IMG/VR virus record: IMGVR_UViG_3300030451_002116
Span: 1-64,000 of that record
Source: a virus
DNA: 64,000 bases
Reading direction: 5' to 3' (one strand)
Of this stretch, positions 34,451-58,848 are shown one piece after another. A model generated the notes under the pieces. That model ran no database searches. It had not been told where the DNA came from and was given only the letters and a program-made list of their open reading frames with translations. The position numbers and the translations under genes are program-made. The stretch's first letter is position 1; every line of letters begins with the position of its first letter.

Positions 34451-34695
34451 TAACCACCTTCCAATTTTGCTACCATTTCATTGATATCTTTCCAATCCAT
34501 CTTGGCAATATCATCAACGCTAGTAGTTCCACTACCCATTGTGGGTGTTGGTGTATTTGTGACAACTAAACCTGACTTCATCAGTATGTTGTCATCATTG
34601 TAAACAGTTTTTTCTAACTTGCTTACCTTATCAACTAACTCCTTCAACAGAAGAAGCATTTCATTGTCTGCACTTTCGTCACTCATCTTTCTCAT
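34447..34695 (-). CDS. small scaffold-like protein with C-terminal W-helix
   Basis: 82 residues. It ends DIAKMDWKDINEMVAKLEGGY (W68), an amphipathic helix that closely resembles the C-terminus of the scaffold-protease (MDWGEIHNFIAQYEN): both have M-D-W-x-[ED]-I-[NH]. The N-terminal half is a short coiled coil (LLLLKELVDKVSKLEKTVY). It overlaps the neighbouring genes at both ends. I infer that this C-terminal helix is a shared docking element in the prohead core. Confidence 0.55.
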   Translation of the reverse strand: MRKMSDESADNEMLLLLKELVDKVSKLEKTVYNDDNILMKSGLVVTNTPTPTMGSGTTSVDDIAKMDWKDINEMVAKLEGGY

Positions 34696-35014
34696 CTCCT
34701 AAATCTCCTTTGCTCTTTGGATAAATCATCCCTCGCATTTGGCGATATAGAATCTCATAATCTTTTCTAAGTTCAGATGCAGCCGCTACAAGAGATATGT
34801 TTGTCTCTTCTATTTTCTCCATCTTTTTCTTATCAGACTTATTTACATTAAGAGATTTTATTTCATCCAATAAATCTCCTAACTTGGTAAAGTCTTGTCC
34901 CATATATTCTGTTGGCTGAACAGATTGTAACAACTTCTTAATTTTCTTCTTTTGCTTTGGGTCAACCTTTGCCAACAATTCACTTTCTTCTTTTAAAATA
35001 ACTTTTTCCCACAT
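34679..35014 (-). CDS. helical protein with N-terminal W-motif
   Basis: 111 residues, strongly helical. It begins MWEKVILKEES, one of the W-motif starts, and continues with KKKIKKLLQ and KKMEKIEE coiled-coil segments. Its start follows the coiled-coil 592-residue protein. It is the leftmost W-tagged protein, i.e. closest to the capsid genes. Function unknown; a head-assembly partner is plausible by position. Confidence 0.55.
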   Translation of the reverse strand: MWEKVILKEESELLAKVDPKQKKKIKKLLQSVQPTEYMGQDFTKLGDLLDEIKSLNVNKSDKKKMEKIEETNISLVAAASELRKDYEILYRQMRGMIYPKSKGDLGDEKDE

Positions 35015-35017
35015 ATT

Positions 35018-36796
35018 TTATCTTCCTCCCATTCTCTCTAATAATTGTTTTATCTGAGGAATCCTATTAAACGCTAAAACTTCTAATCTGTATTGTTTTT
35101 GTAATTTATATAACCTTGCTATTCTTTCTTGGGATTTGAAATTGTCTATTAAATCATCCATTCTTTTCTCTAATTTGACCCGTCTTTCTCTAGTCATTTT
35201 ATTATAGTACGGGTCTCCCCTTCCCGGATTAATTAATTTAAGTAATCTTCTATAATCCTGTGATTGTTTAAACCTATCAAACTCTTTATCTATTTTAGTA
35301 TTTACATTTTGTAAGTTTGTTTCTGCCCCTTTCTTAGAATTGTTTTTAGTTTCTTCTTTTAGAGTTCTGAGGTGCATCATTAATTTTTCTTTGGTGTCTG
35401 GTTTTGTATCTCCACCTGCAAGGAAACTTTGTATTGGGTCAAGTTTTGCTCTTTGCTTTTTATCCTCTTCCCTAATTTGTGCAAATCTTTGTTCTTCCCA
35501 TTCCTTCTCTTCTTTTGTTTTTGGACTTGCAGTAGCATCTCTTCTAAGTCTTTCTCTTTCTTCATCTTCTTGTATTTCCTGTAAGGCAATACCCTGTTTT
35601 GATTTGTAGTCTTTAATATTATTTTGAAGTCCTTCATAATGTTCTCTAAGGTCGGCAAGATATTCAAAATTAGTAACTGATTCCGCAACTCTTTTATCGC
35701 CGTTCTCATTAATAATTTGTTCTAATTTATCTATAGCAGACTTAGTATTCATAATTTTAGCATATTCTTTTTCTACTTCTTTAATAAGTTTGACTAAATA
35801 GTTTCCTGCATATTCTTGAAAGTCTTCTCCTTCTTTTTCTGACTCACTTTTAACATCCCAGTCCCTACGAATACTTGCAGCAATTTCATCGAGAGACCAA
35901 TTTCTATCTCCATCAACATCTTCAATAAAGTCTTCAATTAAATCATAAAAGTCTGCATCTGCACTTGTGTTTGCATTTAAATTATTTACTAATTTGTTTA
36001 AATGTATTGCTGAGTTTTTATTAAATTTATATTCATCTGCGTTTAATGTCTTAATTAAAGAAGGTACAGTAGATTTATCTACTCTCTTTTGTTCAATTCT
36101 TTGTGCTACTCTTCTCAGTTTGTCTGCTCTAGTAATACTTCTATTAAATTCTGATTTTAAAAATCTTTCAAATTTTCTATATAAGTCTGTAACATTTCTT
36201 TTACCGTCTGAATCTACTCTAACTAACTTCGACACAATTGCAGGATGAATCTTTTTCTTATCATTCCAGACAGATTCATTTAGACCCACTAAGAATTTTG
36301 ATGTTATTATTTTTCTCTCCTTTAAATCAGATTTAGTTTTATCAGTTATCCTTTGGTCTTCTTCTAAATCTATCAAAACTTCATTAAGTGTTTTTTCTTG
36401 GAGACTCATTTTTCTTTCTACTTTGGTTGTTTTAGTATCTTGTAGAAATACATCAATAACTTTTAGTATGGTTTCTTTATCTTTCTCTTCAGCATATCTC
36501 ATTATATTTTGTAAAGAAGATTTTATAAATTCAAATGAACTTACCTTCCAACCCTCAGGGCGTTGTCTATCTTTGAAAGAAGTCTTAAGTTGAGAACTAG
36601 TCCAAGTAATTTGAGGCTTTGGATTTATTTCATCTTTGTTCCTCTCAATATACTTGGAGATAGTTCTTCTTATTGCATACTGAACTTCTTTTAAAGTTAA
36701 ATCATTTTCTGCCAATTTTTTAGCATTATCTTTTTTTCTTAAAATTCTGTAAAGTTCCACTTCGGCGGTAACCTGTTTAAGTAACAGTTCCACCAT
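35018..36796 (-). CDS. long coiled-coil head-region protein
   Basis: 592 residues, highly charged (K/E/D/R-rich) and helical. Strong coiled coil between residues about 370 and 490 (QEIQEDEERERLRRDATAS, KEWEEQRFAQIREED). AAGGTGATTTA precedes the ATG. No catalytic motif. It lies between the portal and the ligase. Candidates are a scaffold or a core protein of the prohead. It lacks the W-motif at both ends. Confidence 0.5.
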   Translation of the reverse strand: MVELLLKQVTAEVELYRILRKKDNAKKLAENDLTLKEVQYAIRRTISKYIERNKDEINPKPQITWTSSQLKTSFKDRQRPEGWKVSSFEFIKSSLQNIMRYAEEKDKETILKVIDVFLQDTKTTKVERKMSLQEKTLNEVLIDLEEDQRITDKTKSDLKERKIITSKFLVGLNESVWNDKKKIHPAIVSKLVRVDSDGKRNVTDLYRKFERFLKSEFNRSITRADKLRRVAQRIEQKRVDKSTVPSLIKTLNADEYKFNKNSAIHLNKLVNNLNANTSADADFYDLIEDFIEDVDGDRNWSLDEIAASIRRDWDVKSESEKEGEDFQEYAGNYLVKLIKEVEKEYAKIMNTKSAIDKLEQIINENGDKRVAESVTNFEYLADLREHYEGLQNNIKDYKSKQGIALQEIQEDEERERLRRDATASPKTKEEKEWEEQRFAQIREEDKKQRAKLDPIQSFLAGGDTKPDTKEKLMMHLRTLKEETKNNSKKGAETNLQNVNTKIDKEFDRFKQSQDYRRLLKLINPGRGDPYYNKMTRERRVKLEKRMDDLIDNFKSQERIARLYKLQKQYRLEVLAFNRIPQIKQLLERMGGR

Positions 36797-36805
36797 TAAA
36801 TCACC

Positions 36806-37015
36806 TTACCACGGAATATTTTCGTGTCTCTTATTGTCCAGTTTTTTTGCTTTCTTAAATTGCACAACACCCGGAACATGGTCTGGTTGTTCGCGCTTTA
36901 ATGTTGCCGGGTCATTTCCGACAATATCATGTCTCTTACTGACATCTTTCTTCATTGCATTTACTTCCTTGTTAATCTCCTTAACAAGTTCTTTTTTCTT
37001 ATCTATTGTTGTCAT
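36806..37015 (-). CDS. small basic protein, unknown
   Basis: 69 residues, lysine-rich. N-terminal helix DKKKELVKEINKEVNAMKKD, C-terminus ends in NKRHENIPW. No zinc site. Overlaps the upstream 222-residue gene by ATGA. No family recognised. Confidence 0.5.
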   Translation of the reverse strand: MTTIDKKKELVKEINKEVNAMKKDVSKRHDIVGNDPATLKREQPDHVPGVVQFKKAKKLDNKRHENIPW

Positions 37016-37680
37016 TTTCTTTCACTCTCAAGATATTCTATTCCTCTATATTTTATAGGAATCTTTTTACCGCTACTTAATAATTTATCTACTTCTCTCC
37101 ACTCTTTAAAGTTTATTACAGAAAAAGAATATGGTACTCCGGGCATTGTATATCCTGTACCTCTTTTTTTATCCTCTGATTTATATCCTGTCTCTCTAAC
37201 TACATTAAGGTCAAACCAACCTAGTTTTCTAAAAAGAGGATTTAATTTCTCTATTATGTCATTTTGCGCCCAAGTTCTTAAGTCATCCCAAGTCTGCCAT
37301 CTTCTGTTAAATTCTTCGCTTGGAAATGTTGATACTCTTTCTCTATGAAATCTTTGTCTTCCTCCAAAAAATTCACCAGTCATTGCAGGGCGATTGTATC
37401 TTTTTGTACTAAAAAACCTATTTAAAAAATGAAAGAAATGTGCAGGGCTACCAAAGGGTTCGGGTCGTGTAGGTGAATGCCAATAACTTTTACCATATCT
37501 TTTTTTAGATGCATTTTTCCAAATTGTTGTATAAGCCTCATCTATCTCTTCTTTGTACTTATGCCATTTAGGTTTAAGTTGGTCTAAATCTCTTGAAAAG
37601 TCTCTATCATCAAACGGTGAACCTTGTTCATCTCTTGGTAAACCAACTTCTACTTTCTTAATAGTTTGTTGCCAATTCAT
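37012..37680 (-). CDS. W-tagged basic aromatic protein, unknown
   Basis: 222 residues, begins MNWQQTIKKVEVG (W-motif). The body is basic and unusually aromatic (PAHFFHFLNRFFSTKRYNRP, GEFFGGRQRFHRERVS). It is coupled to the portal by ATGA. A compact DNA- or capsid-binding protein is possible, but nothing diagnostic is visible. Confidence 0.5.
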   Translation of the reverse strand: MNWQQTIKKVEVGLPRDEQGSPFDDRDFSRDLDQLKPKWHKYKEEIDEAYTTIWKNASKKRYGKSYWHSPTRPEPFGSPAHFFHFLNRFFSTKRYNRPAMTGEFFGGRQRFHRERVSTFPSEEFNRRWQTWDDLRTWAQNDIIEKLNPLFRKLGWFDLNVVRETGYKSEDKKRGTGYTMPGVPYSFSVINFKEWREVDKLLSSGKKIPIKYRGIEYLESERK

Positions 37681-39323
37681 CCAACTCGCCTCTCTGTTCT
37701 TGAATCAACATTCTTATTACCTGCTTCCCTCGGTAAACCAGTAAATCTTTTATCTGGGCCAGTTTCAGAAGATGGTTTATTTCTGGTTGCTGGCGGATTT
37801 TCTTGTGGAGTAGTTCTTTCTTGTTGCCCCTGTTGTTCCATAATTTGACCCATTTGACTTGCATCTATATTTGTACCAGCATAGGGGTCACGTTCAATTT
37901 GTTTGTCTTGTCCCTTAGGTGCTTTACCTTCTTCTGGTTTTGGTTTATGATAAGAAAACCTTCCCTTATCATCCATTTCTACTTCAAAGCCTAAGTTTTT
38001 AATAGACGCAGCAATTTGCACTTCTAGTTCTCTTAACCTTATTTTGGCTAACTCATCTTCTTCTTCAGAAGGAGGTAACTTTAATTTCCAATCTGTGATT
38101 CCAAATTGTTCTGTAATAAATGGTAAAACATAATCATTCCAAATAGTTTGTGCCATTTCAACTGCACGGTTTGTAACAAGAATTTGCATACCTTCATTAT
38201 TCAATCCACCACTGGCGGAATTGTCTGCCATGAAAATTTTAGATACGCCATAGAACGCAGAAATTCTATCTCTTAAATCTTCTTTAACAGCAACATAATC
38301 CATTTCTTTTAGGCTATCTAAAAACTTTATCCACTCAATAGAACCTTTACCATTTTCTGCTTCTATTCCCATAACAGGAATAAAGTGAGGGTCTTGCTCC
38401 ATTTTTTCTTTAACGCCTCTCCAGAAATTTTTCATAGAATCAATATTTCTGGTTTGAACTGCAAGTAATCCTCTTGGCATTCTGCTCTTTGAATAAGAAG
38501 AATTTACATAATTTTCCATAGCAATCAACGTAGTAATGTGATTCCAAAGAGTAAGTATTGGAGACAAACCATAAAGTCTACTTGGATTATATTTACTAAA
38601 GTGTAGAACTTCTCCCTTAATATAATACTGTTCTTCTCCATGCGCTCTATTTACATAATGAATTGGATAAGTAGGGCCACCGCATTCTTCACATCTTTCA
38701 GCAGGGTCATCCGATTTGAAATCTCTATGTCTGATACAGGTAAATCCTTCTTTTCCTTTTGTTCCTTTTTCATCAGAATAAATTGCCATGCTTACAGGGT
38801 CTCCCCTATACATTTCTTTTATTCTGTGCATTTTTATTTCGCCGTTGCCATCTAAGAAATATTCTTTAACTAGAATAACATAGGCATCATCCATGATGTT
38901 TAAATCATCTTCCATTTCTTTTAGAATATCAATAAACATTTGCTCAGATTCATTTACATACCTGTGTAAAAATTTCTTAGCATAAACTAATTGGTCTTTG
39001 TTAGGCTTTTTTAAATCTGGGCTACCGCATTCTTGACAAGCGGGAGTAGGAGACTTATGTTCATTACCACAAGAGTTACATTTTAATGCAAACTTTTCTT
39101 CCCAATGATAACCTCTTCTAAATATCTCCGTCTTTAATTGACTAGTGCAGGTTCTTACTATTACTGATTGTTGTGCAACATGATATACCACTGGTGCAGT
39201 AATCATGTATGAAGTATCTTTTTCTTGGATACCCGGATTGAAAACTTTTCTATCAGCAGGTTTAGGAGTTCTTCTCCTAAATACATTGCGAATAGAAAAT
39301 CTTCTTTGTTCTTCTTCTACCAT
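37677..39323 (-). CDS. portal protein with two zinc ribbons
   Basis: 548 residues. The portal pattern is clear in GEVLHFSKYNPSRLYGLSP (about residues 237-255) and following helices, together with position after the large terminase. Two zinc sites are inserted: C82-x2-C85 with C96-x2-C99, and C196/H199 with C211-x2-C214. The C-terminus is a Q/P-rich tail. It would form the packaging channel and head-tail joint. The zinc ribbons presumably stabilise a wing/clip region or mediate contact with the terminase; that is inference. Confidence 0.8.
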   Translation of the reverse strand: MVEEEQRRFSIRNVFRRRTPKPADRKVFNPGIQEKDTSYMITAPVVYHVAQQSVIVRTCTSQLKTEIFRRGYHWEEKFALKCNSCGNEHKSPTPACQECGSPDLKKPNKDQLVYAKKFLHRYVNESEQMFIDILKEMEDDLNIMDDAYVILVKEYFLDGNGEIKMHRIKEMYRGDPVSMAIYSDEKGTKGKEGFTCIRHRDFKSDDPAERCEECGGPTYPIHYVNRAHGEEQYYIKGEVLHFSKYNPSRLYGLSPILTLWNHITTLIAMENYVNSSYSKSRMPRGLLAVQTRNIDSMKNFWRGVKEKMEQDPHFIPVMGIEAENGKGSIEWIKFLDSLKEMDYVAVKEDLRDRISAFYGVSKIFMADNSASGGLNNEGMQILVTNRAVEMAQTIWNDYVLPFITEQFGITDWKLKLPPSEEEDELAKIRLRELEVQIAASIKNLGFEVEMDDKGRFSYHKPKPEEGKAPKGQDKQIERDPYAGTNIDASQMGQIMEQQGQQERTTPQENPPATRNKPSSETGPDKRFTGLPREAGNKNVDSRTERRVG

Positions 39324-39326
39324 TTA

Positions 39327-40652
39327 TCATACATCCATTTTTGAATTTGCTTCCAACTTACTAATCCCATCTATATCAATGTCCCATTCATTCCAATTGA
39401 AATTAGTGTTGTCTTTGTGATTGTGATATTTCATAAGTTTAAATAACTCATCTTTTCTGTCTTTGTACCAATCTGCTTTTTTATTCTCTTTCTTTATTTT
39501 AATTAGTTCTAGCAAAACTTTTGCATTTGGCCCTTTCATTCTAAAGTGTGGTAAACAATTTTTTAATAGTTTAGTAATATCTTTTCCAGAATAGAAATTT
39601 AATCTGTTAACAGGTCTAGTGTCTTGTGGTGACTTTTGGTCTAAATGTAATCTTCCAATGCTTCCTAATGATTTATACATTTCCATCATAAATGCTTTTC
39701 CTCTATCTCCTGTCGCAACTAAACCTACTCTTGGATTATGATTTTTGTCCATTGTAATATATCCATCAGAGTCTATGAATGCTGCTGTGTATGCCCATAT
39801 ATTCTTTTTTATTTCATCATTAAATTTATAATAAGCACCATTGACCCCAGTTATATTTTCTTCCTTTGCTAGTTTAGCAATTATTGCAGTAGAAGTTTTA
39901 TCGTATAGATTCTTTTCTAAAGAATCATGAATTTCTCTTGCAGAAATACCCGGATTATTACAAACTGCTTTTAAGATTTCACTCTTCAAGACTGACTTGG
40001 GGCTAGGGTTTATAGAGGTTTCCTTTAGAATTGCTTTAAATTCTTTTTTGGCTTCTGTTGCTTTCTTTAGATTAGAAGCATACTCTTTACCAAATGAAAG
40101 TTCTTTCATATCTAAATTTGCTTCCCAATTTTTACAAAGCGAATCCACTACTCTTCTTCTAGTATCTTCTTCACTTATTTTACTTAGTTTTAGTAAATCG
40201 CTTTCAGAACAAGTCATACTTTGTAAAGGAACCTTATATTTCTTTACCCAATAAATAGATTCTATACATTTGTTAAGATAATCAGAATAACCATCAATTA
40301 GATTATCAATAGCCTTCGTAAATTTAATTTTTGGTTCTCCTTTTAATGTCCTTCGATAATTTCTCATTTCTTTAACTACCATAGGAATACTATTACCCTG
40401 AATCTCATATGCCTGAGGATAAACATCTAATGCCTTTTTAGCATCTGTTAAATTCATTCCAAACTCTTCTGCATAATCTTTTGTTATATCATCATGGCTT
40501 CTTATTGGTTTGTTTTCTAACCAACTTGCGTTTTTCATGCCATCAGTTAAGTTTTCCATTTGTTCAGTTAACTTAGCCTTTTCACGCATAATTTTTGATT
40601 GTGCTTCTAATTCATCAGCCTGTTCTTCTTCTAAATCTGATTCATTTGTCAT
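39327..40652 (-). CDS. winged-helix plus LAGLIDADG-type protein
   Basis: 441 residues. Residues about 220-277 read as a winged helix (SVLKSEILKAVCNNPGISAR, then a beta wing YYKFND). The C-terminal 155 residues carry one LAGLIDADG-like helix, AAFIDSDGYITM (residues 290-301, D296 as likely metal ligand), followed by homing-endonuclease-like strands and a LRPH-like region near NCLPHFRMKG. It stands between terminase and portal with 14- and 3-base gaps and no intein splice signature. It is either a free-standing homing endonuclease or a virus protein that has recruited the fold. Confidence 0.65.
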   Translation of the reverse strand: MTNESDLEEEQADELEAQSKIMREKAKLTEQMENLTDGMKNASWLENKPIRSHDDITKDYAEEFGMNLTDAKKALDVYPQAYEIQGNSIPMVVKEMRNYRRTLKGEPKIKFTKAIDNLIDGYSDYLNKCIESIYWVKKYKVPLQSMTCSESDLLKLSKISEEDTRRRVVDSLCKNWEANLDMKELSFGKEYASNLKKATEAKKEFKAILKETSINPSPKSVLKSEILKAVCNNPGISAREIHDSLEKNLYDKTSTAIIAKLAKEENITGVNGAYYKFNDEIKKNIWAYTAAFIDSDGYITMDKNHNPRVGLVATGDRGKAFMMEMYKSLGSIGRLHLDQKSPQDTRPVNRLNFYSGKDITKLLKNCLPHFRMKGPNAKVLLELIKIKKENKKADWYKDRKDELFKLMKYHNHKDNTNFNWNEWDIDIDGISKLEANSKMDV

Positions 40653-40666
40653 CTTTTACACCCGAC

Positions 40667-42103
40667 CTAAAAATTTAAACCTATCATTCCCGTATTTTGC
40701 TCAAATAGAGGCGTTTCAGGCTCATCGAATAGTTCCATGTCATCAAGGAGCATAAACGCTTCTGTCGGCGTTTGTGAGGCCGCATTTGCTAAGGCTAGGC
40801 CCATAACCAAGTCGTCATGCGCACCGACTCCCTCAAACTTACCAGATTGAGTAATTGAGAACATAGATAATTCTTCTAATAGTGCTTGAGTCATCTTTCT
40901 GCTGTTATTATCTCCATACGGAAGATGTAATTTGTTGTTTTCAAAGTTCATTTGTAGATTTAATATAATTTCTTGCTTCTTTCTACGGGTTGTATCAAAA
41001 TCCCTTACATTTAAGTCGGATACAGCCCTTAACTCTTGTGTAAACGCCTTTGCGAATGTATTTGTTTCGTAAAGTATGACTTCCGGCTCAAACACTTGAC
41101 CAATTAGACGTAATTTATCAATATTTTCTCTAAATTGAACATTTTTACTTCTATCTACATGAACAATGCTTTTATTTTTCTCATCATCTACTTCTAAAAC
41201 CATAATTACGTTATAATCGCCGTCTGTAGAGATAGCAGGGTCAACACCTACATAATATTTGTATCCTTTATCTTTTCTGTGACCTAATTTAAGAATTAAA
41301 TCTCTATTTTTTGCATTTTCTAAGTGTTCTTGTCCAAAAAGTGCTGTTCCTGTTGAAACTGGTATACATAGATACTCCCTAGTAAACTTTAATGAACCAA
41401 TTTCTGCCTTCCTTTGCATCAGAGCATCAAAATCCCATCTTTCAGGCCATAAGGGTTCATTCATTGAATCTAAACAGGGATATTTTCTAACTGTATAGGC
41501 TTCGTTTTCTTCTAGTTGTGAGAAAATATCAGTATAAGTAAAAGGAGTCCCTATCATTCTAAGATTAGCAGTGTGGTGAAGTGTAGGAATCATATCTCCG
41601 AAGAACCAATCAGTAACTCTTTGAATACCAGTTAAACTAAACTCTTTCAAAGGGTCATCAATAATAATTTCTTGCGGGTGAAGACCACGAATCTGTGAAC
41701 CTACTGACCTTTCAAGAATTGAGTTGCCATTCGTTAATGTTATGTTTCCAATAGCCCATCCTCTTGTTGGTCTAAACTTTTTTAACTGTGGTAAATTAAA
41801 ATATCTATCTATCTCTCTCATGTGAACAAGAGTCTGCTTTTGGTTCGATGAAATGTATAGCATCTGATATGGTGGTTCTTGGAACACTAAATTCCAAACT
41901 ACCCAAGAATGCATAAAAACAGATTTTCCGTGGTCACGACTACAGACTATTACGGTTCTATCTGTGTTTGACATAGTATCTAGCCATTCTTGCATATAGG
42001 CAGGATACATCATACCTAATACATTTTGAAAGAAATAAGGAAATGAATCTTTTGACATTTGCATATCCATCTGATGAGCAAAGTTTAATTCTTCTAATTC
42101 CAT
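40667..42103 (-). CDS. terminase large subunit (TerL)
   Basis: 478 residues. ATPase: Walker A CSRDHGKS at residues 54-61, Walker B EIIIDDP at 145-151. RNase H-like nuclease: YYVGVDPAISTDGDYN (first acidic residue near 286), VILYETNT, and a late acidic HDDLVMGLALA. It cuts and packages DNA into the prohead with the portal. It ends in an acidic tail (DDMELFDEPETP). The upstream gene, the GNAT-like protein, overlaps it by one base. Confidence 0.9.
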   Translation of the reverse strand: MELEELNFAHQMDMQMSKDSFPYFFQNVLGMMYPAYMQEWLDTMSNTDRTVIVCSRDHGKSVFMHSWVVWNLVFQEPPYQMLYISSNQKQTLVHMREIDRYFNLPQLKKFRPTRGWAIGNITLTNGNSILERSVGSQIRGLHPQEIIIDDPLKEFSLTGIQRVTDWFFGDMIPTLHHTANLRMIGTPFTYTDIFSQLEENEAYTVRKYPCLDSMNEPLWPERWDFDALMQRKAEIGSLKFTREYLCIPVSTGTALFGQEHLENAKNRDLILKLGHRKDKGYKYYVGVDPAISTDGDYNVIMVLEVDDEKNKSIVHVDRSKNVQFRENIDKLRLIGQVFEPEVILYETNTFAKAFTQELRAVSDLNVRDFDTTRRKKQEIILNLQMNFENNKLHLPYGDNNSRKMTQALLEELSMFSITQSGKFEGVGAHDDLVMGLALANAASQTPTEAFMLLDDMELFDEPETPLFEQNTGMIGLNF

Positions 42104-49631: not shown

Positions 49632-49642
49632 TGTAACCTCTC

Positions 49643-49828: not shown

Positions 49829-49830
49829 AA

Positions 49831-51227: not shown

Positions 51228-51231
51228 TATA

Positions 51232-51546: not shown

Positions 51547-52202
51547 GCCATTTTCTCCTCCATCTTTCGTTTCACATCTAACCAAACTTGTGGATGATTT
51601 TGTGCTAATACCTCTTGAACAATCTGCATTTGCGCTACTATGATTGTATCCTGTCTCTTATGAACTAACTTGCCCTTAAACTCCATAAGATATCGTAGAC
51701 TCTCTCTAATCTCTTTTGCTAGTTTAGTTAAACTATCTATGTATTTAGGATGTAATGGCTCATCGCTATCGAAAAGCGTATCTATTTTCATTTCTAACCG
51801 TGTTATATTTTTAGACAGACTCTCAATTTCGTCTACCTCCTTCACCGCTATTATATTTGCCGCAGACTTCTGAACCAATGGTTGAAGATGTTTCCTCATG
51901 TGTCGCTTTACTTGTTCTTCTGAACATTTCAAAAGCATTGAAACACCTTTTGGTGTTACCGAACCTTCACTTAATTCTTTCTCTAAATGACCTCTTAACT
52001 CATGCGTACAAAAGGCACACCTCGGATTAGATGCATCAACATAATCTCCCATATGATTTCTTTGATGCCTTGCTGATGTTCCGCTAGGCCAATCCATTTG
52101 CCTATCCAAATCATCAGGCGCAATAGCCATTGTTTCTAATTGCGCTTCTAAATCATCACGGTCTTCGTGATTACATAATTTACATCGTCTTCTCTTTACC
52201 AT
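51543..52202 (-). CDS. double zinc-finger/helix-turn-helix protein, candidate small terminase
   Basis: 219 residues from the ATG at 52200-52202 (MVKRRRCKLC), preferred because it overlaps the end of the upstream gene; six more residues in frame are possible. Two copies of a C-x2-C...H-x3-H unit: C7, C10, H46, H50 and C62, C65, H101, H105, each ending in an R-H-x3-H helix (ARHQRNH, KRHMRKH). A coiled coil follows. This zinc/helix plan occurs in some small terminases and DNA-binding proteins, so it may select DNA for packaging. It has no W-motif. Confidence 0.5.
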   Translation of the reverse strand: MVKRRRCKLCNHEDRDDLEAQLETMAIAPDDLDRQMDWPSGTSARHQRNHMGDYVDASNPRCAFCTHELRGHLEKELSEGSVTPKGVSMLLKCSEEQVKRHMRKHLQPLVQKSAANIIAVKEVDEIESLSKNITRLEMKIDTLFDSDEPLHPKYIDSLTKLAKEIRESLRYLMEFKGKLVHKRQDTIIVAQMQIVQEVLAQNHPQVWLDVKRKMEEKMA

Positions 52203-53365
52203 GCTAATACACTCTTCCAACTCTTTTTAACTTCTTTCTTTTTCTTTTCTACAGGTTTAGGCTTTGCTACCCCCGGCATGAATACAGTTTCTTTACCGGG
52301 TGTTCTCTTACACTTACCTGTTAAAATGGCTAGATTTTTTGTCTGCCTTCTTGAAATGTTTACTGAAATCCCTTTTACTTCTCCTATGAACTTATCATAG
52401 TCTGCTACTCTTTTAACAGTCTTACTGTCTTTTACACCAATATCTATAAATGTAAATGCCTTGAGCCTATTGTTAACATGGGTGTCTCTGAACATACCTG
52501 TTGTCTTATTAATGCCCCAACCGGGAGCCTGTGGTGTTCCAACGCATTCTGCCATGTATTCCTTGATGGCATCTATAGTCATCAATTCTGGAGCAGTTAC
52601 GCCTTTTCCAGAATCCACAATCTTTAGTTTCAAATGCTCAAAACTAACATCTTCCTCTAATGCCTTTACAGTTTCACTTAGAATATAAACTAAACCATTG
52701 CTAACCAATTGTTGCTTTAAGATTATACTCTTTTTAACTTCATATAACGTACCATCACCTGCAAACAATGCTTGCCACATTGGAGGCTCGGCAGTATTTT
52801 TACTTGTATTATACCAATCAGAAGAAACCGCCTTTATTGACTCCTCTTTTCCTCCAAACAATTTTGCTTTTAGATTTCTATATTTAACATAATCAGTGGT
52901 TCTATAATGACCATATACTTCTTTAGTATCTGTCTCTTCATCATAGTCTGCATTCTTTCTATTTACCTTTCTAAAAATAGGTACTGTGAAAACAATGTTT
53001 CTTGGGTCTGCTTCGGTATTCTGCATGTTCTTTAATTTAGTATATACCTTAGTAACATTCTTTTTATCTTCCTCAGTTATACCATCTGTTAAATCTAACA
53101 AAGCATCCAGTAACTCCACTACGTTACCTGCACCGTCATCTAACGGGTCATCAGTATATGGCCTAGCAACTTGTGTATCTCCATGTGCGGCAACTAAATC
53201 TAATAATGTTTTATCAGAAGTAATTCCCATTTGCTCTCCACTAACACTACTACATTGGTCTTTCCATTCTTCATAAGCCTCCTTAAACTTAGAAGAATCA
53301 AAAGTTTGTGTTCCCTGAGAGCCGTCTATAGAGACTCCAACATTTGCCTTCTTTTCTTTTGCCAT
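52196..53365 (-). CDS. hypothetical protein with C-terminal W-motif
   Basis: 389 residues. No N-terminal W-motif, but the C-terminus ends KKSWKSVLAW, reminiscent of the motif (W-x-x-[VL]-L). Mixed alpha/beta (TLLDLVAAHGDTQVARPY, AFTFIDIGVKDSKTVKRV). The start overlaps the 81-residue gene by one base. Function unknown; the end of the protein might dock to the same partner as the tagged proteins. Confidence 0.5.
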   Translation of the reverse strand: MAKEKKANVGVSIDGSQGTQTFDSSKFKEAYEEWKDQCSSVSGEQMGITSDKTLLDLVAAHGDTQVARPYTDDPLDDGAGNVVELLDALLDLTDGITEEDKKNVTKVYTKLKNMQNTEADPRNIVFTVPIFRKVNRKNADYDEETDTKEVYGHYRTTDYVKYRNLKAKLFGGKEESIKAVSSDWYNTSKNTAEPPMWQALFAGDGTLYEVKKSIILKQQLVSNGLVYILSETVKALEEDVSFEHLKLKIVDSGKGVTAPELMTIDAIKEYMAECVGTPQAPGWGINKTTGMFRDTHVNNRLKAFTFIDIGVKDSKTVKRVADYDKFIGEVKGISVNISRRQTKNLAILTGKCKRTPGKETVFMPGVAKPKPVEKKKKEVKKSWKSVLAW

Positions 53366-53610
53366 TACTCTTCCTCTTCATCATTATCCATTGTGTGAAT
53401 AGATAGGTCTTTCTTTCTATTATCCACACCCCCTTCATCATCTAGGTTTTGCGACATACCCCCTGCTACGGCTGTTGCACCTGCACCTATTATTGGAGCG
53501 ATAACTTTCTCCAAATCTTTCTTCTTCTTTCCGTATAATGGTCTTGCCTCTATACCCCCTGTATTAGACATGACTGCACCTGAATCTTTTATTACATTCC
53601 ACCACTTCAT
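53365..53610 (-). CDS. W-tagged protein, unknown
   Basis: 81 residues, begins MKWWNVIKDSG. Contains a glycine/alanine hydrophobic stretch (VIAPIIGAGATAVAGG, residues about 35-50) that might be a short membrane-active or packing helix, and ends in an acidic DNDEEEE tail. Overlaps both neighbours by 1-4 bases. Confidence 0.5.
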   Translation of the reverse strand: MKWWNVIKDSGAVMSNTGGIEARPLYGKKKKDLEKVIAPIIGAGATAVAGGMSQNLDDEGGVDNRKKDLSIHTMDNDEEEE

Positions 53611-53816
53611 AGTTTTTTTACCTCCTTCAATAAATCTGCATAGTAACTGCTTTTTCGATTATAAAATATTCTTACTAATTTTACTTTGTCGTTTGCTCCC
53701 ATAAATATAGGGTCATTTTTCTTAACACCATATTCTTCCATTTGGCGAATTTCCTTATCTGTTTTGATTTCCTCTAACTGAACATCATACTTTTGTTTGA
53801 ATATTTTAAACCACAT
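53607..53816 (-). CDS. W-tagged small protein, unknown
   Basis: 69 residues, begins MWFKIFKQKYD. Mixed helix/strand, ends with YNRKSSYYADLLKEVKKL. A 1-base gap to the gene before. No motif recognised. Confidence 0.5.
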   Translation of the reverse strand: MWFKIFKQKYDVQLEEIKTDKEIRQMEEYGVKKNDPIFMGANDKVKLVRIFYNRKSSYYADLLKEVKKL

Positions 53817-53817
53817 A

Positions 53818-54486
53818 CTATTCTTCTCCTTCTGGTAGTTCTGGTAATTTCTTAAGTGCTTTAACTATTTCTTTATATGCAGGATGTTTAGTAAATAATG
53901 TAATGTAAAATATCTTATCATCCTTTGTAGGTGGCTTGAATTTATAAGGTTGTGGTGGTCTTTCTGTAGAAGTATCTTTAGTTATTTTAACAGAAGTTCT
54001 TTCTTCTTCTTCTTCTTCTAACCCCATAGCATCATAGTATGCTTGACGGTCTCCTTCTTCCCAAAAATCAAATGTAACTAATTTTGGTTTCCCCATAAAC
54101 TTTAGATTTTTATTTGCTAACTCTAGCCCAAATTTTGCTAAATCTCTAACTACTTCTCTTAATTTATTTTTACCAGCAGAACCAACATGTGACGGGTGAG
54201 TATTATATGTGAATTCATATGGCTCATCTGCATTAAAATTATCTTTTATCTGTTTCATGGTAAAGTTATCTTTAGATTGATTTAACATTGTTGGAGATAA
54301 AGTTTTGAGACCTATCCAAGCAAGCGGTAATCTTCCGCTTCCTCTACCTTCCATTGTATACCCATCACCTGTTGCTTTAACAATGTCTATCATATTAGGT
54401 CTACTTTCATAGTTTTCAATAGCCTCATTTATTTCTGATTCAGTTGGCATCAAACGCTCTCTTTTAAGAAGGCTTTCCCACATCAT
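53818..54486 (-). CDS. W-tagged protein, unknown
   Basis: 222 residues, begins MMWESLLKRER. The middle (KFGLELANKNLKFMGKPKLVTFDFWEEGDRQ-like region, residues about 120-150) has alternating helices and strands that faintly recall the second half of a GNAT fold, but no acetyl-CoA motif is seen. ATGA overlap with the preceding gene. Function unknown. Confidence 0.5.
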   Translation of the reverse strand: MMWESLLKRERLMPTESEINEAIENYESRPNMIDIVKATGDGYTMEGRGSGRLPLAWIGLKTLSPTMLNQSKDNFTMKQIKDNFNADEPYEFTYNTHPSHVGSAGKNKLREVVRDLAKFGLELANKNLKFMGKPKLVTFDFWEEGDRQAYYDAMGLEEEEEERTSVKITKDTSTERPPQPYKFKPPTKDDKIFYITLFTKHPAYKEIVKALKKLPELPEGEE

Positions 54487-55211
54487 CTTCTTCTCACCCC
54501 ATCTAAATCTCTAAGTTGTTTCTTCCATCTTGGTCTTTTTTTCTTAGGAGAAACTTGTTCATCCTTCCAATCTCTATGTTTTTCTCTATATCTTTCAGAT
54601 GGCTTCATTTCAGAAGGAGCCAATTTACCTTCCATCCTAGCACCCTCTTCTTCATCAATAGTTAAATCTTCATTGTCTTTCATGTAAGTTGTTTTACACA
54701 ATTGCCATTGTTCTTGAACATACTTCATTCCATCTAAATTCATAATGTCTATACCAAAGAGAGTTATGTCCTCCCCTCTATCTGGTTCCATTAAGTTGTT
54801 GATAGTTTTACAATCATAGTCCATAATTGTACGGAATACTTTCTTTCTTCTTGCAGGAGTTAGTTTGTAAAGATTTTCATTTTCATTCATATATTCAATA
54901 ACTTCTTCTAATAATAATTCTTTTGCCCCTTCACAGCAAGGGTCATCATCTGGATTTACTTGGCCGTCTTCTGCCATTGTAAAACTAGGAGAAACCCTAC
55001 TAATAATATCTTTAGACATTCCACCCCTTTGACTGTATTCTTCCTCTTCATCATCATCAGAAGAAGGCGCACCTCCCCCGCCTCTATTTGGGCCACCGCC
55101 TCCACCGCCAAAACCGCTTTGTCTATCTAATTCAGATTCTCTTTCCCTATTAACCCACTTACCAGTTTTAGGGTCTTTTGTCCTAACCTTTAGAATCTTA
55201 TTCCAATCCAT
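54483..55211 (-). CDS. W-tagged acidic, glycine-rich protein
   Basis: 242 residues, begins MDWNKILKVRT. Residues 30-60 are a glycine-rich linker followed by an acidic run (PSSDDDEEEEYSQRGG). The middle has CCEGAKELLLEEVIEYM with paired cysteines. The C-terminus is basic (KKKRPRWKKQLRDLDGVRRR). This acidic-middle, basic-end plan is like chromatin-type or DNA-condensing proteins; not proven. Confidence 0.55.
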   Translation of the reverse strand: MDWNKILKVRTKDPKTGKWVNRERESELDRQSGFGGGGGGPNRGGGGAPSSDDDEEEEYSQRGGMSKDIISRVSPSFTMAEDGQVNPDDDPCCEGAKELLLEEVIEYMNENENLYKLTPARRKKVFRTIMDYDCKTINNLMEPDRGEDITLFGIDIMNLDGMKYVQEQWQLCKTTYMKDNEDLTIDEEEGARMEGKLAPSEMKPSERYREKHRDWKDEQVSPKKKRPRWKKQLRDLDGVRRR

Positions 55212-55213
55212 AA

Positions 55214-55573
55214 CTACACCTTGTAATATGTTTTCTTTCCGTTCCTTCCAACGCCGCGTTCTTGTTTTGTTGTAATGTTCATTGTTTCTAATCTCTTTCT
55301 TAAGAAAGACGTAAGGTTTTCATCACTATCTTTTAACTTGGGATTTTGTTCTCTTAGTGATTTTATTATATCGTCTATTGTATTCCAATCGTTATTAGTT
55401 TGTAAATATTTTGTAATCTGTGATTCTAAAGAATCATAAAATTCAGTGCTTCTTTTTCCGTGTTTCTTTCTTAGATAATCTAAATGTTTCATATCATCAG
55501 ACTTTGCATACTTTTCAGCAAGCATCTCAAACTCTTTGAGTTCATCAGATTTAATTAATTCAAACCAAGTCAT
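55214..55573 (-). CDS. W-tagged helical protein, winged-helix-like end
   Basis: 119 residues, begins MTWFELIKSDE. Residues about 60-119 (WNTIDDIIKSLREQNPKLKD, then SFLRKRLETMNI and a GKKTYYKV wing) resemble a winged helix-turn-helix, so DNA binding is plausible. A similar shape is seen in the 104-residue protein at 56665. 4-base gap to the gene before. Confidence 0.55.
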   Translation of the reverse strand: MTWFELIKSDELKEFEMLAEKYAKSDDMKHLDYLRKKHGKRSTEFYDSLESQITKYLQTNNDWNTIDDIIKSLREQNPKLKDSDENLTSFLRKRLETMNITTKQERGVGRNGKKTYYKV

Positions 55574-55577
55574 TCAA

Positions 55578-55862
55578 TCACCAATCTCTACACGCCATAC
55601 ATCTAGCAGAATAATCTCCTTTTCCGCACGTTGAACATTTATGTCTTGCTCTAAAGGATTTCTTTCTCTTAGTGTTTCCACTCTTACCTGTCACTTTAAC
55701 TCCTGATTGACCCCAATGAACTTTCTTATACTTGCCTTTCTTTCCTGATGGAACACAAGCCATCCATTTCTTTCCACTTCTTGTTGATTTGGTTTTACCT
55801 GTTCTTTTGGTACACCTACCAGACTTACACAGGTTATCAAACCAAGCATCCATTTTATTCAA
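55578..55862 (-). CDS. W-tagged basic Cys-rich protein of a marine-phage family
   Basis: 94 residues. Begins MNKMDAWFDNLCKSG (shifted W-motif). The second half, HWGQSGVKVTGKSGN then RKKSFRARHKCSTCG and CMACRDW, matches a protein pattern I know from marine phages in which G-x-x-K precedes RRKSFRARHNC. Very basic with cysteines that could bind zinc. Its function in phages is unknown; a DNA-binding or internal-virion role is plausible. Confidence 0.65.
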   Translation of the reverse strand: MNKMDAWFDNLCKSGRCTKRTGKTKSTRSGKKWMACVPSGKKGKYKKVHWGQSGVKVTGKSGNTKRKKSFRARHKCSTCGKGDYSARCMACRDW

Positions 55863-56223
55863 TCCTTGTAGTATCCTTACTTAAATGTCTTAAGTATTTA
55901 TCATCTAATTCATAGAAGTGAAATAGTTTTTTACTCTTGCCTTCTACATGTTCTTTACCAGACATTAAAGTTCCATCGGGGTGTTTGTGGGTTTCACCAG
56001 TCCACTGAACAGGTTTACCATCTTCAATATAGAAATGTCTTTCTCCCTTTCCTTTCCTAAGATTCTTAAAATCTTCTCCCGTTATTTTACCATCATCATT
56101 GGTGTCAATTTCATGCTGGTCACCAACGAGTTTTTTCTCCTCCATTACAACAACAGGCCCGTATGTTTTACACGGATTTTGCCCACAGCCGCAATGTCTC
56201 TTTATTACTTCTTCCCAAGTCAT
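55855..56223 (-). CDS. W-tagged EF-hand/dockerin-like protein
   Basis: 122 residues, begins MTWEEVIKRH then a C-G-C-x-x-x-x-C cluster (CGCGQNPC). Residues about 38-58 contain a calcium-loop sequence, DTNDDGKITGEDF (D1, N3, D5, G6, I8, D12), as in EF-hands and dockerins. Similar single loops occur in small phage proteins. Calcium-dependent binding to another virion or host component is possible. Confidence 0.6.
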   Translation of the reverse strand: MTWEEVIKRHCGCGQNPCKTYGPVVVMEEKKLVGDQHEIDTNDDGKITGEDFKNLRKGKGERHFYIEDGKPVQWTGETHKHPDGTLMSGKEHVEGKSKKLFHFYELDDKYLRHLSKDTTRIE

Positions 56224-56483
56224 CTTTTTCCTTTTCTCCTTTTATATGTTTTACACGCTGCACATGTTGGTCTACATCTTCTCTTTTTACCTTTTGAAGC
56301 ATCTTTTCTACCACAAGGTTTAGGCCCACCCTTTCTTCCACAAGTTGAACAATCAATCCATCCTCCCTGTGTTTTACCTCCTTTGGTTTCTTTTCCGCCT
56401 CTTCTTGAAAACCATCCATGTAATCCTTCATCTTTTTCGCGCTTGAATTTGTCTCCGCCTTTAACTACTTCAAACCAACTCAT
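56220..56483 (-). CDS. W-tagged basic zinc-binding mini-protein
   Basis: 87 residues, begins MSWFEVVKGG. Rich in K, R and G, with cysteines C45, C48, C57, C70, C74, C77 that can form one or two zinc sites. The C-terminus KTYKRRKGKR is strongly basic. Compact, positively charged and tagged: a good candidate for a protein packaged with DNA. ATGA overlap with the next gene. Confidence 0.6.
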   Translation of the reverse strand: MSWFEVVKGGDKFKREKDEGLHGWFSRRGGKETKGGKTQGGWIDCSTCGRKGGPKPCGRKDASKGKKRRCRPTCAACKTYKRRKGKR

Positions 56484-56665
56484 TTTGATTTACCCCAATT
56501 AGCACAACCTACCTTTCTACAACGCACTACTGCACCGGAAGCATAAGCAGAAGGCCAAACTGAATATCTTGCTTTTACCTTTCTAGTACAGCAATCATCT
56601 GTGTTTTTCTTTTTCTTACGCCTTCGCGCTTTTTTCTTCTTGGCCTTTACAACTTCAAACCACAT
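56480..56665 (-). CDS. W-tagged lysine-rich protein of the WPSAYASGA family
   Basis: 61 residues, begins MWFEVVKAKKK followed by a lysine/arginine run (residues 8-20). The C-terminus contains RYSVWPSAYASGAVVRCRKVG and ends WGKSK. I recognise the [FW]-PSAYASGA signature as a conserved phage domain of unknown function (I believe it is a DUF5872-like domain, number not checked). The lysine-rich start suggests DNA binding. Confidence 0.7.
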   Translation of the reverse strand: MWFEVVKAKKKKARRRKKKKNTDDCCTRKVKARYSVWPSAYASGAVVRCRKVGCANWGKSK

Positions 56666-56979
56666 TATTTCTGCCCCACATATAAAAACTTCATACCATT
56701 GCGTTCATAGATTATTCGCATATTACCTAGTCTAGCCTCTCTTTTGAGAAATGCCCTTAATTCTCCATCAGTAGGCATAGCCCTTCTAAGAGGAGATTTT
56801 GGTTTACCGGAAGCATCTAACACTCTACCTGCGGCTCTTTCTTTGTTGTCTTTTTCAATAGCAGTTCTAACCATAGACATTATTTGTGCTACGTCTAATG
56901 GCCTGTCAACATACTTAATGGTGTCTGAAACAATTTGATGTAGTTGTTTTTTCTTTTTTACTATATCTTCCCAACCCAT
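56665..56979 (-). CDS. W-tagged winged-helix-like protein
   Basis: 104 residues, begins MGWEDIVKKKK. The rest (VAQIMSMVRTAIEKDNKERA, then ELRAFLKREARLGNMRIIY and a KFLYVG wing) has the helix-helix-wing order of a winged helix. Similar in plan to the 119-residue protein at 55214. It starts an 11-base gap after the preceding zinc protein. Confidence 0.55.
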   Translation of the reverse strand: MGWEDIVKKKKQLHQIVSDTIKYVDRPLDVAQIMSMVRTAIEKDNKERAAGRVLDASGKPKSPLRRAMPTDGELRAFLKREARLGNMRIIYERNGMKFLYVGQK

Positions 56980-56990
56980 AATTTAGCACC

Positions 56991-57290
56991 TCATAGTTTT
57001 ACCATGTTATTGTGACCATCCATGCCACTGTCTTTATGCTCATCACACCATTGCGCTCCACATTCAGCACAAGCCCACGTTGCTTTATTTTTACAACCTC
57101 TGCCAAAAGGTTGCCAAGAGGAACACGCATCTTTTGGGAAATCTGCAATGTTAAAATCTGCCATAGTGTCTTTACCAGTCCTACGCTGAAAACCCTTAAA
57201 CTCCTTAGGTTTCTTTTCTGGTGTTTTTGGGTCAGGCTTTTTCCCCCCTCTATTCGGATTAAATACTTTAACGAGTTCTTCCCATGACAT
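56991..57290 (-). CDS. W-tagged zinc protein, paralogue of the 135-residue protein
   Basis: 99 residues, begins MSWEELVKVFN. Zinc residues C56, C66, C74, C77, C82, H85 (ATWACAECGAQWCDEH) follow a lysine/proline-rich linker. The C-x7-C-x2-C-x4-C-x2-H segment matches that in 49055-49462, so both derive from one ancestor and both carry the N-terminal tag. Possible DNA- or protein-binding zinc knuckle. Confidence 0.65.
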   Translation of the reverse strand: MSWEELVKVFNPNRGGKKPDPKTPEKKPKEFKGFQRRTGKDTMADFNIADFPKDACSSWQPFGRGCKNKATWACAECGAQWCDEHKDSGMDGHNNMVKL

Positions 57291-57294
57291 AGGG

Positions 57295-58848
57295 TTACCT
57301 CCAATCCAGCATAGGAAGCAGTTTAGTCTTAAGGTCTGCGGGCAAGTTGGTATTGCTATAGAACAGATATCCTAATTTTAACACCATCTTGTCATTCTTG
57401 CGTATGCCCAAAGTATTAATCAAAACGTCACTAGAACTTGCCTGTGCCTTTTTCCACGCATAATATCTTACAATATAATATTGGTCATCTATTCTGGTTT
57501 CAACGGTTTTCTGCCTCCATTTGCGGGGCTTATCAAATTGAGTATCATATTTATTTTCTAAGTCTTCAATAACCATTAGTTCTCTTGGCCTGAGTTCTTT
57601 CTTCCATTTATCATAATCACCGACTCTTTTATACCAGCCCTTCATATTGCCACTTAGAATCATATCTGCTCTTGAGACTACATAAGCCTCCCTTCCTGCA
57701 CTTGGGTCTAATGTTCTTTCAGGTACATCTTCTGGAGATTTTGTTTTTGCTTTTTTACCACTCCATAAATCACCGTTTTCATCTAACGGCCCAAAGACAT
57801 CTTTTTTACCAAAGGGTTCATTGGTGAGTTTTCTAAGTGCAATACAAGCAATTATCTCTGGAATATCATCTATAAATTTATAATTAGTAAAATACGGTTG
57901 AGCAATAGGATTTTCAAAATTACTGCCGCTTTCAGTCAAACCTAACTGTCTTCTAACTTTAGGGTCATCCGCTTGCTTTTTTCTTTCTTCTTCAATTAAA
58001 TTAAGAGCATCTTGCATTTTATCATTAATGCCAAAAATGTTTATTCTAGAACCCATATCTTTTTTCATTTTATCCCAGTAATTTGACATTTCTTTTCTAC
58101 ACTTATCATCTCTTAATCCTTCTGTAGTATATGCTTCGTGAACATCTTCTATTTTGGTATCTGAAAACAATTGTGATTCAGGTTCATCTTCTCTTCCAAG
58201 ACCGGGGCCAGCCGCAAGTGCTGTATTTAAATTACCTACCTGTTTACCCATTTTATTATAATACTGTAATAACCTACCTGTTAACCACTCGGCATATTTA
58301 TCTAAATTTCCTTCTGGTGATTGAGCATGCATAAACATTTTTAACGCTAGAGAATATCTTATATTGTAATAATCCTGACTATCATTTAATTGACCCTGAC
58401 TTTGAGACCTATCTCGCTCAGTATCCCTAAAGAACCATCCATAATGTAGCCTATTAGCAAACTGATGGAAAAAGGAACTTACACTTGGATGTTCTATATC
58501 TCCCTCCATTTCATTATCTTTCATTATCTCAATTAAATCTCTAACATCCATAAAACTATTAGGAAGTACATAATCACCCTGCCTCTCTAATATAAGATTT
58601 AATACCTTTGTCTTCCATTCGGAATTAAGTTGGTCGGTGTTTCTACCACGAAGAAAAATCGAAGCATCAAAATACGGTCTTTGCAAATAACTAAAAGGAG
58701 AGTAATTAAAAATTCTTTGTCCTCTTAATATCTGAGATAATGCTTCTACTGATGATGCATAATATTGGCTTACATTAGAAGGAATATATATTTTCTTTAT
58801 CTCATCTTTCTCATCAGTAGGAATTCTTGCTATTTCTCTCCAACTCAT
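57295..58848 (-). CDS. W-tagged large protein, unknown
   Basis: 517 residues, begins MSWREIARIPTDE (W-motif with Arg in place of Lys at the last position). Mixed alpha/beta. Repeated aromatic/charged segments (SVEALSQILRGQRIFNYSPF near residue 40; a YYIVRYYAWKKAQ strand near 465). No family recognised. Its ATG overlaps the mini-membrane gene by ATGA. It is the first large gene of the long operon. Confidence 0.5.
   Translation of the reverse strand: MSWREIARIPTDEKDEIKKIYIPSNVSQYYASSVEALSQILRGQRIFNYSPFSYLQRPYFDASIFLRGRNTDQLNSEWKTKVLNLILERQGDYVLPNSFMDVRDLIEIMKDNEMEGDIEHPSVSSFFHQFANRLHYGWFFRDTERDRSQSQGQLNDSQDYYNIRYSLALKMFMHAQSPEGNLDKYAEWLTGRLLQYYNKMGKQVGNLNTALAAGPGLGREDEPESQLFSDTKIEDVHEAYTTEGLRDDKCRKEMSNYWDKMKKDMGSRINIFGINDKMQDALNLIEEERKKQADDPKVRRQLGLTESGSNFENPIAQPYFTNYKFIDDIPEIIACIALRKLTNEPFGKKDVFGPLDENGDLWSGKKAKTKSPEDVPERTLDPSAGREAYVVSRADMILSGNMKGWYKRVGDYDKWKKELRPRELMVIEDLENKYDTQFDKPRKWRQKTVETRIDDQYYIVRYYAWKKAQASSSDVLINTLGIRKNDKMVLKLGYLFYSNTNLPADLKTKLLPMLDWR

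Follow-up and report, generated by a model that had tools for sequence, protein, structure and literature searches.

A tryptophan-containing terminal peptide shared by otherwise different proteins of a magrovirus-like tailed virus: a candidate address label for loading into the head

Why do so many otherwise different proteins of one virus begin with nearly the same eight residues? The question is raised by IMG/VR record IMGVR_UViG_3300030451_002116, a virus record of 68,657 bases, of which 64,000 bases (hereafter the window) were analyzed. A first-pass annotation made from the letters alone had reported at least 25 minus-strand proteins starting with variants of one tryptophan-containing peptide (hereafter the tag), and had proposed a shared sorting or loading signal. 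Our analysis revealed that the tag is a terminal peptide, not a strictly N-terminal one, and we read it, at a probability of about 0.6, as an address label that docks tagged proteins to a prohead partner, for enclosure and probable ejection.

Proteins that start with the tag

The strict pattern, M-x(0,7)-W-x-x-[ILVMF]-[ILVMFYCA]-[KR], was matched at the start of 20 of the 63 genes listed for the window, and the loose form at 25, in agreement with the number first reported. All 25 fall among the 35 genes of 34447-58848, as expected from the cluster previously placed at 34.7-58.8 kilobases (kb), and encode proteins of 52-673 amino acids (aa), the size range given before. They share the strand of the head genes and sit among them, near the prohead protease. 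The ten untagged genes of this region are those for the portal, the terminase large subunit (TerL), open reading frames (ORFs) 35018, 36806, 39327, 42767, 43622 and 51543, the 82-aa coil-like protein at 34447, and the protein at 52196, which is tagged at its C-terminus. The tag is also absent from the major capsid protein (MCP), the prohead protease, the ligase and the listed tail genes, which bears out its reported absence from TerL, portal, capsid and tail proteins. Net charge per residue was +0.024 for the 25 tagged proteins versus -0.029 for the 38 untagged ones, a difference given without a significance test. For 51232-51546 and 55578-55853 an inner ATG was taken as the start, since the tag opens with that codon. 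The tagged genes are as follows.

34679-35014, minus strand: tagged ORF, MWEKVILK with variant spacing (tag 34991-35014; relatives MSWEDILLK, MTWEDILRK)
37012-37680, minus strand: tagged ORF, MNWQQTIK, a variant (relatives MSWTLIIK, MNWLLVLK)
42103-42702, minus strand: tagged GNAT-fold acetyltransferase, TTG start, NWFDLLK; many relatives tagged at the C-terminus instead
43048-43206, minus strand: tagged ORF, MKWFDIVK
43203-43625, minus strand: tagged ORF, MSWFEITK (variant)
46171-48192, minus strand: tagged ORF of 673 aa, MTWETVLK
48197-49045, minus strand: tagged ORF, MDELWEKVLK, from an inner ATG (GTG start possible at 49054)
49055-49462, minus strand: tagged Cys-rich ORF, MNDWKDIVK
49455-49631, minus strand: tagged ORF, MSWKDKLLK, a variant (relatives MSWKKLLK, MTWKSILK)
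49643-49828, minus strand: tagged ORF, MSWQDMLK, sub-threshold C2H2 match
49831-50151, minus strand: tagged ORF, MNWEDIVK
50148-51227, minus strand: tagged ORF, MNATAAWFELAK
51232-51546, minus strand: tagged ORF, MNWDDIFK, inner ATG start, just below the DUF4428 cut-off
53365-53610, minus strand: tagged ORF, MKWWNVIK
53607-53816, minus strand: tagged ORF, MWFKIFK
53818-54486, minus strand: tagged ORF, MMWESLLK
54483-55211, minus strand: tagged ORF, MDWNKILK
55214-55573, minus strand: tagged ORF, MTWFELIK
55578-55853, minus strand: tagged ORF, MDAWFDNLCK (variant), inner ATG start
55855-56223, minus strand: tagged ORF, MTWEEVIK, sub-threshold EF-hand match
56220-56483, minus strand: tagged basic Cys-rich ORF, MSWFEVVK
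56480-56665, minus strand: tagged basic ORF, MWFEVVK
56665-56979, minus strand: tagged ORF, MGWEDIVK
56991-57290, minus strand: tagged ORF, MSWEELVK, sub-threshold AN1 zinc-finger match
57295-58848, minus strand: tagged ORF of 517 aa, MSWREIAR

Shuffling, a check that the first-pass annotation had suggested, separated the tag clearly from chance: 2000 whole-protein shuffles of the window proteins gave a mean of 0.10 and a maximum of 2 strict matches against the 20 observed (loose form: mean 0.54, maximum 4), and shuffling the first 15 residues alone gave a mean of 0.32 and a maximum of 3. After internal methionines of the window proteins the strict pattern occurred in 2 of 465 cases. Across 1684 gene calls from the window and 80 related loci, many of them near-duplicates, the core W-x-x-[ILVMF]-[ILVMFYC]-[KR] reached a frequency of 36 per 1000 positions among residues 1-5 versus 0.13 per 1000 past residue 200; the reversed core occurred 0 times in the first 15 residues and 33 times elsewhere. 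In the same set, the M-x-W form was present at 276 gene starts versus 135 of 14273 internal methionines, part of which we take to be mis-called starts.

The comparison with other viral genomes gave a similar result. A coding pattern for the tag had 3-17 matches in each of 20 records of the virus group, with none for the reversed control, versus 0 in six of nine control records (T4, HVTV-1, HCTV-1, HGTV-1, vir519 and pVco-5); the remaining three were Bacteroides phage DAC16 with four matches (one with an internal stop codon) and a Pelagibacter phage and a Synechococcus phage with one each, and the reversed pattern occurred once in the nine, in the Synechococcus phage. Sixteen further records held 2-18 matches each (reversed control: 2 in total); these were picked from an IMG/VR scan for one tag variant (41 stretches), so that at least one tag in each is present by construction. 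Thirteen of them carry a TerL of the window type, and the three without a TerL match may be fragments. A few coding-pattern matches are interrupted by a stop codon or fall on the opposite strand, with 8 on the minority strand in total. In nine records over 92 kb with listed matches (two more of that size were left out), 88 of 93 listed matches lay at most 20 kb from TerL, an area of about 41% of the genome. A second clade, with TerL at about 56% identity, contained 181 tags in 963 kb, compared with 440 tags in the 1420 kb that surround the first set of TerL genes, and three of the second clade's loci longer than 15 kb had no tag at all.

Grouping of 570 tagged starts yielded 468 distinct proteins and 188 clusters by BLAST single linkage at E 1e-4, 112 of them singletons; 188 is an upper figure, because BLAST may count distant relatives apart. 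With one member per cluster, the logo reads M-S-W-[E/F/K/Q]-[D/N/E]-[I/V]-[L/I/V]-K, with M-S-W-x-D-I-L-K as consensus, and falls near background beyond the lysine. A MAFFT alignment of 120 representatives gave MSWxxILK followed by one majority residue, with W3 invariant and M1 and K8 at 90% or more. The assertion that the codons differ between genes was correct in part: leucine, where it fills the second hydrophobic position, is written with each of its six codons, whereas serine before the tryptophan is AGT in 107 of 109 clusters, versus 146 of 269 second codons of untagged genes, so that the bias is partly common to both. A G-rich stretch resembling a ribosome-binding site lies 8-12 bases upstream of the tag ATG (158 families), which supports this ATG as the true start.

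Conservation of the tag within clusters is circular, because the clusters were chosen by having it; a search for orthologues by the protein body alone served as the unconditioned version. Among 254 orthologues found in this way, the tag was strict in 186, loose or of the F form in 37 and missing from 31, with V, L or F forms also allowed, the stretch upstream of the body scanned, and 5 comparisons without room for a tag. An untagged orthologue was present in 13 of 77 families, and several of the 31 are, by eye, fusions to a neighbor, some with a W-peptide at the junction. These counts suggest that the tag is mostly kept while the protein bodies diverge. In the family of ORF 35018-36796, several relatives begin with a phenylalanine form (MSFLDGFLI, MNFMEILW), whereas the window protein starts with MVELLLK and so lacks an aromatic residue at the tag position.

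The peptide at C-termini and domain junctions, and a possibly related one on scaffold-type tails

The description of the tag as N-terminal proved too narrow, since the same peptide also ends proteins, in the family of one ORF inside the tagged cluster and in relatives of the GNAT protein.

52196-53365, minus strand: ORF tagged at the C-terminus, SWKSVLAW (52196-52222), with an untagged N-terminus

When relatives of this protein were collected with a query from which that end had been removed, 31 of 42 distinct C-termini carried the tag, in forms such as DWRTVLK, SWEEILK, DWREIIK and SWKEIIK. In an alignment of the window protein with 33 of 49 distinct matches, the tag tryptophan W383 is the only invariant column; this is largely selection, because 13 of the 16 sequences left out lack the C-terminal motif, and 31 of 42 is the fair figure. 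In the AlphaFold2 model, the C-terminal tag forms a helix (383-388) that stands off the core and follows a linker of low confidence. This protein has no match in PDB at E 0.001, and three unnamed viral models were matched. In the model of the window GNAT protein the tag lies in an N-terminal helix (3-10), and in both models the confidence of the tag region (pLDDT, predicted local distance difference test) is near 60-65.

The GNAT protein adjoining TerL has its tag, NWFDLLK, at the N-terminus in the window, with like peptides in the closest relatives L004 and L007 and a variant in L006, but other relatives end in GWKDILRR, NWFYIMRK, KWMQVLRR or AWDIIKGR. Direct BLAST linked the window protein to relatives ending in AWSILYKGDF (E 9e-16) and WRFILMRG (E about 1e-6). 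Weaker links, at E 6e-5 to 3e-4, led to relatives ending in AWVVIKGE, AWSILKTLR and WMQVLRRHV; a fused protein of L177 joins the AWSILKTLR form at E 5e-19 and the AWVVIKGE form at 2e-18. Among 100 GNAT relatives, 10 were N-tagged, 35 C-tagged, 0 both and 55 neither by the patterns used, a count based on an iterated profile that had spread to fused proteins of two domains. The N-tagged GNATs proper are three (window, L004 and L007), because 7 of the 10 match the second domain alone; L006, whose start lies outside the pattern, adds to them. As a control, the loose motif was present in 30 of 799 internal 16-mers of the same proteins, and 16 of 45 listed rows with neither tag end, by eye, in still looser W tails. 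The window protein was aligned with 41 of the 63 relatives listed, the others being 14 copies that were truncated or nearly identical and 8 paralogues about 157 aa long. In this alignment the window GNAT, too, has a tryptophan at the C-terminal tag column (KKWNKINASLRR), but lacks the hydrophobic pair.

Where the GNAT protein is fused to the product of the next gene, the peptide is found at the junction, as AMKKAWEILK, AMKKAWEVLK and AMQKAWKIIK (in L166, L177 and L254); in genomes with the two split (L218, L197, L186), it ends the first protein or begins the second. Over 3351 gene calls, the C-terminal motif occurred in 111 versus 53 for the reversed one, and 24 of the 111 belong to one W-rich family of 74-78 aa. 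The presence of the tag at either terminus argues against explanations based on the start codon and for an exposed docking peptide.

Two further proteins of the head region end in a similar peptide.

30426-31673, minus strand: prohead protease (S78) with scaffold-like tail region, C-terminal W-peptide MDWGEIHNFIAQYEN (within 30426-30476)
34447-34695, minus strand: 82-aa coil-like protein, C-terminal W-peptide MDWKDINEMVAKLEGGY (within 34447-34503)

The motif [SDENT]W.[DENQS][ILVM] was present in 49 of 51 distinct C-termini of the protease-scaffold family and 81 of 84 of the 82-aa coil family; in the last 22 residues of all 3351 gene calls it occurred in 220, these two families included. The scaffold W-peptide has the first half of the tag in common, without L-K, and is possibly related to it; that the tag would mimic a scaffold tail is a suggestive lead, not proof. 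The W-peptides are of the types MSWGEIHNFI and MDWKDINEMV, as if two scaffold-type proteins shared one docking tail. In herpesviruses, the scaffold tail binds the capsid protein, and the protease-scaffold and a second scaffold form have this C-terminal capsid-binding tail in common. The protease-scaffold and the 82-aa coil-like protein of the window resemble that arrangement in sharing a C-terminal W-peptide, although capsid binding of the window tails is putative, and we know of no herpesvirus cargo tag of this kind.

The virus group and the tagged proteins' folds

The minus strand of the window encodes TerL, a portal, the prohead protease with its long tail region, an SU10-type MCP, an ATP-dependent DNA ligase and a tail tube protein.

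29006-30415, minus strand: major capsid protein, SU10/Druskaviridae-like, untagged; candidate docking partner
37677-39323, minus strand: portal, untagged
40667-42103, minus strand: terminase large subunit, untagged

In a phage collection, the window MCP matched nine records at 23-28% identity, all haloarchaeal tailed viruses except one Methanofastidiosa virus, and its relatives include Druskaviridae; a comparison with PDB sequences gave no match. TerL relatives are common in IMG/VR, in records of up to 103 kb; the analysis kept the best 80 of 258. PolB, the family B DNA polymerase, was present in 12 of 12 long related records, a search that covered the relatives of the window's own record. Together with ligase, MCP, prohead protease and a large Caudoviricetes genome, and with PolB taken from the relatives, this is the gene set of magroviruses (order Magrovirales), and by gene content rather than a tree the record fits the magroviruses of marine Poseidoniales (PMC10768690), a group called ubiquitous in the surface ocean (PMC10160649). 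The hosts are probably archaea. In GTDB, only four contigs of metagenome-assembled genomes (L164, L165, L166 and L167) matched; they have a TerL of the window virus group and are binned as Maricaulis and Altibacter, probably wrongly.

PF00136 (PolB) matches are split in two pieces in 8 of the 12 records (G002, G004, G005, G007, G012, G014, G015, G016), in different open frames in seven of them and within one frame in G015, which hints at a split polymerase. Between TerL and the portal, the window has a 441-aa ORF (39327-40652) with a PHROG match to HNH endonucleases (E 1e-4), and an ORF of 462-484 aa takes this position in the three relatives examined (L177, L195 and L218). The untagged 850-aa protein at 43622-46174 had 69 BLAST matches among the gene calls of related loci and carries a conserved C-terminal segment of the type VYHVKAxFR.

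As for the folds earlier assigned to tagged proteins, the GNAT label was supported: a Foldseek search with the AlphaFold2 model of 42103-42702 matched GNAT enzymes (best 8h66, E 6.8e-5). The EF-hand and zinc fingers of the window correspond to sub-threshold Pfam matches only. Profile searches against Pfam, PHROGs and NCBIfam, with 120 of 150 cluster representatives of at least 80 aa, gave isolated matches, and tagged relatives with Pfam matches to PAP2, KH and zinc-ribbon domains were found.

A probable docking label, its rivals and known systems

We favor the docking label because the peptide stands at either end, on different folds, among head genes, and is mostly kept while bodies diverge. 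In this mechanism, M-S/N/T-W-x-D/E-I/V/L-L/I/V-K would form a short amphipathic helix with the tryptophan and the I-L pair on one face. During virion assembly, the helix would attach its carrier proteins to a component of the prohead as it grows, the capsid protein or the scaffold-protease core being the likeliest partner; the docked proteins would be enclosed in the head and would probably leave it together with the DNA, to work immediately inside the newly infected cell, perhaps in takeover or anti-defence. The sorting or loading signal first proposed is thus the best-fitting reading for a separable, conserved, head-gene-centred peptide at either end, but a second conserved site after the tag, which might have marked its removal, is absent. 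A wider form of the idea, which we consider possible but tentative, would make loading open: any protein gaining the W-peptide, or fused to a tagged one, would be enclosed, the peptide mimicking the scaffold tail, and more than 100 unrelated injected proteins would be packed and exchanged.

Several results weigh against a docking label. A prohead protease is encoded in the window, but the 188-cluster logo contains no conserved cleavage site after the tag, and removal of the tag by this protease is not indicated. Apparently no tagged protein is so far known in a particle. Pfam matches among the 120 representatives fall into nine families with one member each, and takeover functions of the cargo are mostly unsupported, because few domains were recognized; among 20 chosen members, no tagged ones were found behind the PHROG matches to head proteases and DNA pilots. 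The largest tagged protein of the window, at 673 aa, would be bulky as cargo. By the tag profile, the two scaffold tails are weakly tag-like: 3.5% and 6.1% of internal 20-mers score as high as their medians, and the protease N-terminus does equally well (3.45%) although it lacks a W-peptide. In the 52196 family, 10 of the 11 C-termini without the tag trace, by their ends, to the second clade, where the C-terminal tag is missing from most members of the family. Scored with the tag profile among 73 genes of one 50-kb stretch of T4, Alt being outside this set, the internal-protein genes ipIII and ipII ranked 11 and 12 of 73 N-termini, a score reached by 13.7% of internal 14-mers, and ipI ranked 57, a score reached by 61% of internal T4 14-mers. 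Homology to the T4 signal was dropped, because the internal proteins did not stand out by this profile.

Among the rivals, an assembly-hub peptide that recruits proteins to the terminase, the portal or another hub, where they act without entering the head, accounts for the clustering of tags round TerL and for a terminal peptide that stands apart from the folded core in the two models. The large and changing set of proteins fits cargo better than a defined machine, and portal, TerL, MCP and protease are themselves untagged, which leaves this reading unlikely. A peptide that binds a host chaperonin, proteasome, membrane or polymerase, and so sorts or stabilizes late proteins, seems more doubtful again: a short amphipathic helix would suit it, and an ICTV profile credits a related family with GroEL and GroES genes of its own (PMC10768690), but confinement round the head genes would be unexpected, with the tail genes of the window untagged and few matches far from TerL.

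Explanations that take the peptide for a by-product or a relic are both very improbable in our judgment. Selection on the DNA or mRNA of gene starts, for translation initiation or as a recombination site for gene capture, agrees with the AGT bias of the serine codon, but not with leucine at +4 in all six codons or with recurrence of the motif away from gene starts, and a DNA-level signal was set aside because of the C-terminal and junction copies. Common descent, in which the tagged proteins form a single paralogous family with unrecognizably diverged bodies and the N-terminus as the best-conserved part, would be in keeping with many small proteins of unknown fold in tandem, and the BLAST clusters could conceal distant relatives; on the other side stand the GNAT fold, the PAP2, KH and zinc-ribbon matches, and the GNAT protein itself, relatives of which bear the tag at the opposite terminus.

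Whatever its function, the occurrence of one octapeptide on up to 188 protein clusters is clear-cut and can be put to the test. If it is a loading signal, the tag would name likely injected proteins of a marine virus group at one stroke and give a simple rule for finding more, most tagged proteins matching no known family; it would extend capsid targeting from a handful of T4 proteins to lineage-wide addressing at either terminus in other tailed viruses, and might serve as a short handle by which proteins could be packed into HK97-type shells. No description of the tag was found in a limited search of the literature on magroviruses, Poseidoniales viruses and archaeal tailed-virus capsid targeting, a coverage that left out the founding magrovirus description.

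Of known systems, the capsid-targeting sequence (CTS) of T4, carried by its internal proteins (IPI-IPIII) and Alt (PMC7411985), is close in kind: a short N-terminal peptide on otherwise different head-made proteins, and the tag, too, is a terminal peptide common to otherwise unrelated proteins. PMC9026906 describes the first 10 residues of IPIII as sufficient for targeting, with residues 4 and 7 mattering most, fused cargo as delivered into the host, and the internal proteins as basic, like the tagged window proteins. IPII and IPIII also share with the tag an initial aromatic residue and hydrophobic ones at i+3 and i+4. The T4 precedent cited by the first-pass annotation therefore stands as a way of working (PMC9026906), but not as a sequence relation by the tag profile. 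The CTS lies at the N-terminus and is removed by gp21 after L/I-x-E, whereas the tag is carried by 25 proteins in one genome, has a tryptophan, takes either terminus and shows no conserved cleavage site. In phage P1, an N-terminal signal of DarB suffices to send a reporter into the phage head, and no consensus among Dar proteins is reported (PMC9024508). In encapsulins, a short peptide encoded at either end of unrelated cargo directs that cargo into an HK97-fold shell (PMC7355545). The window tag likewise occurs at either terminus, a likeness of position drawn without sequence comparison, and encapsulins are cellular nanocompartments, not viruses. The proposed working of the tag would match that of capsid-targeting peptides, from which it differs in scale, in sequence and in its choice of terminus.

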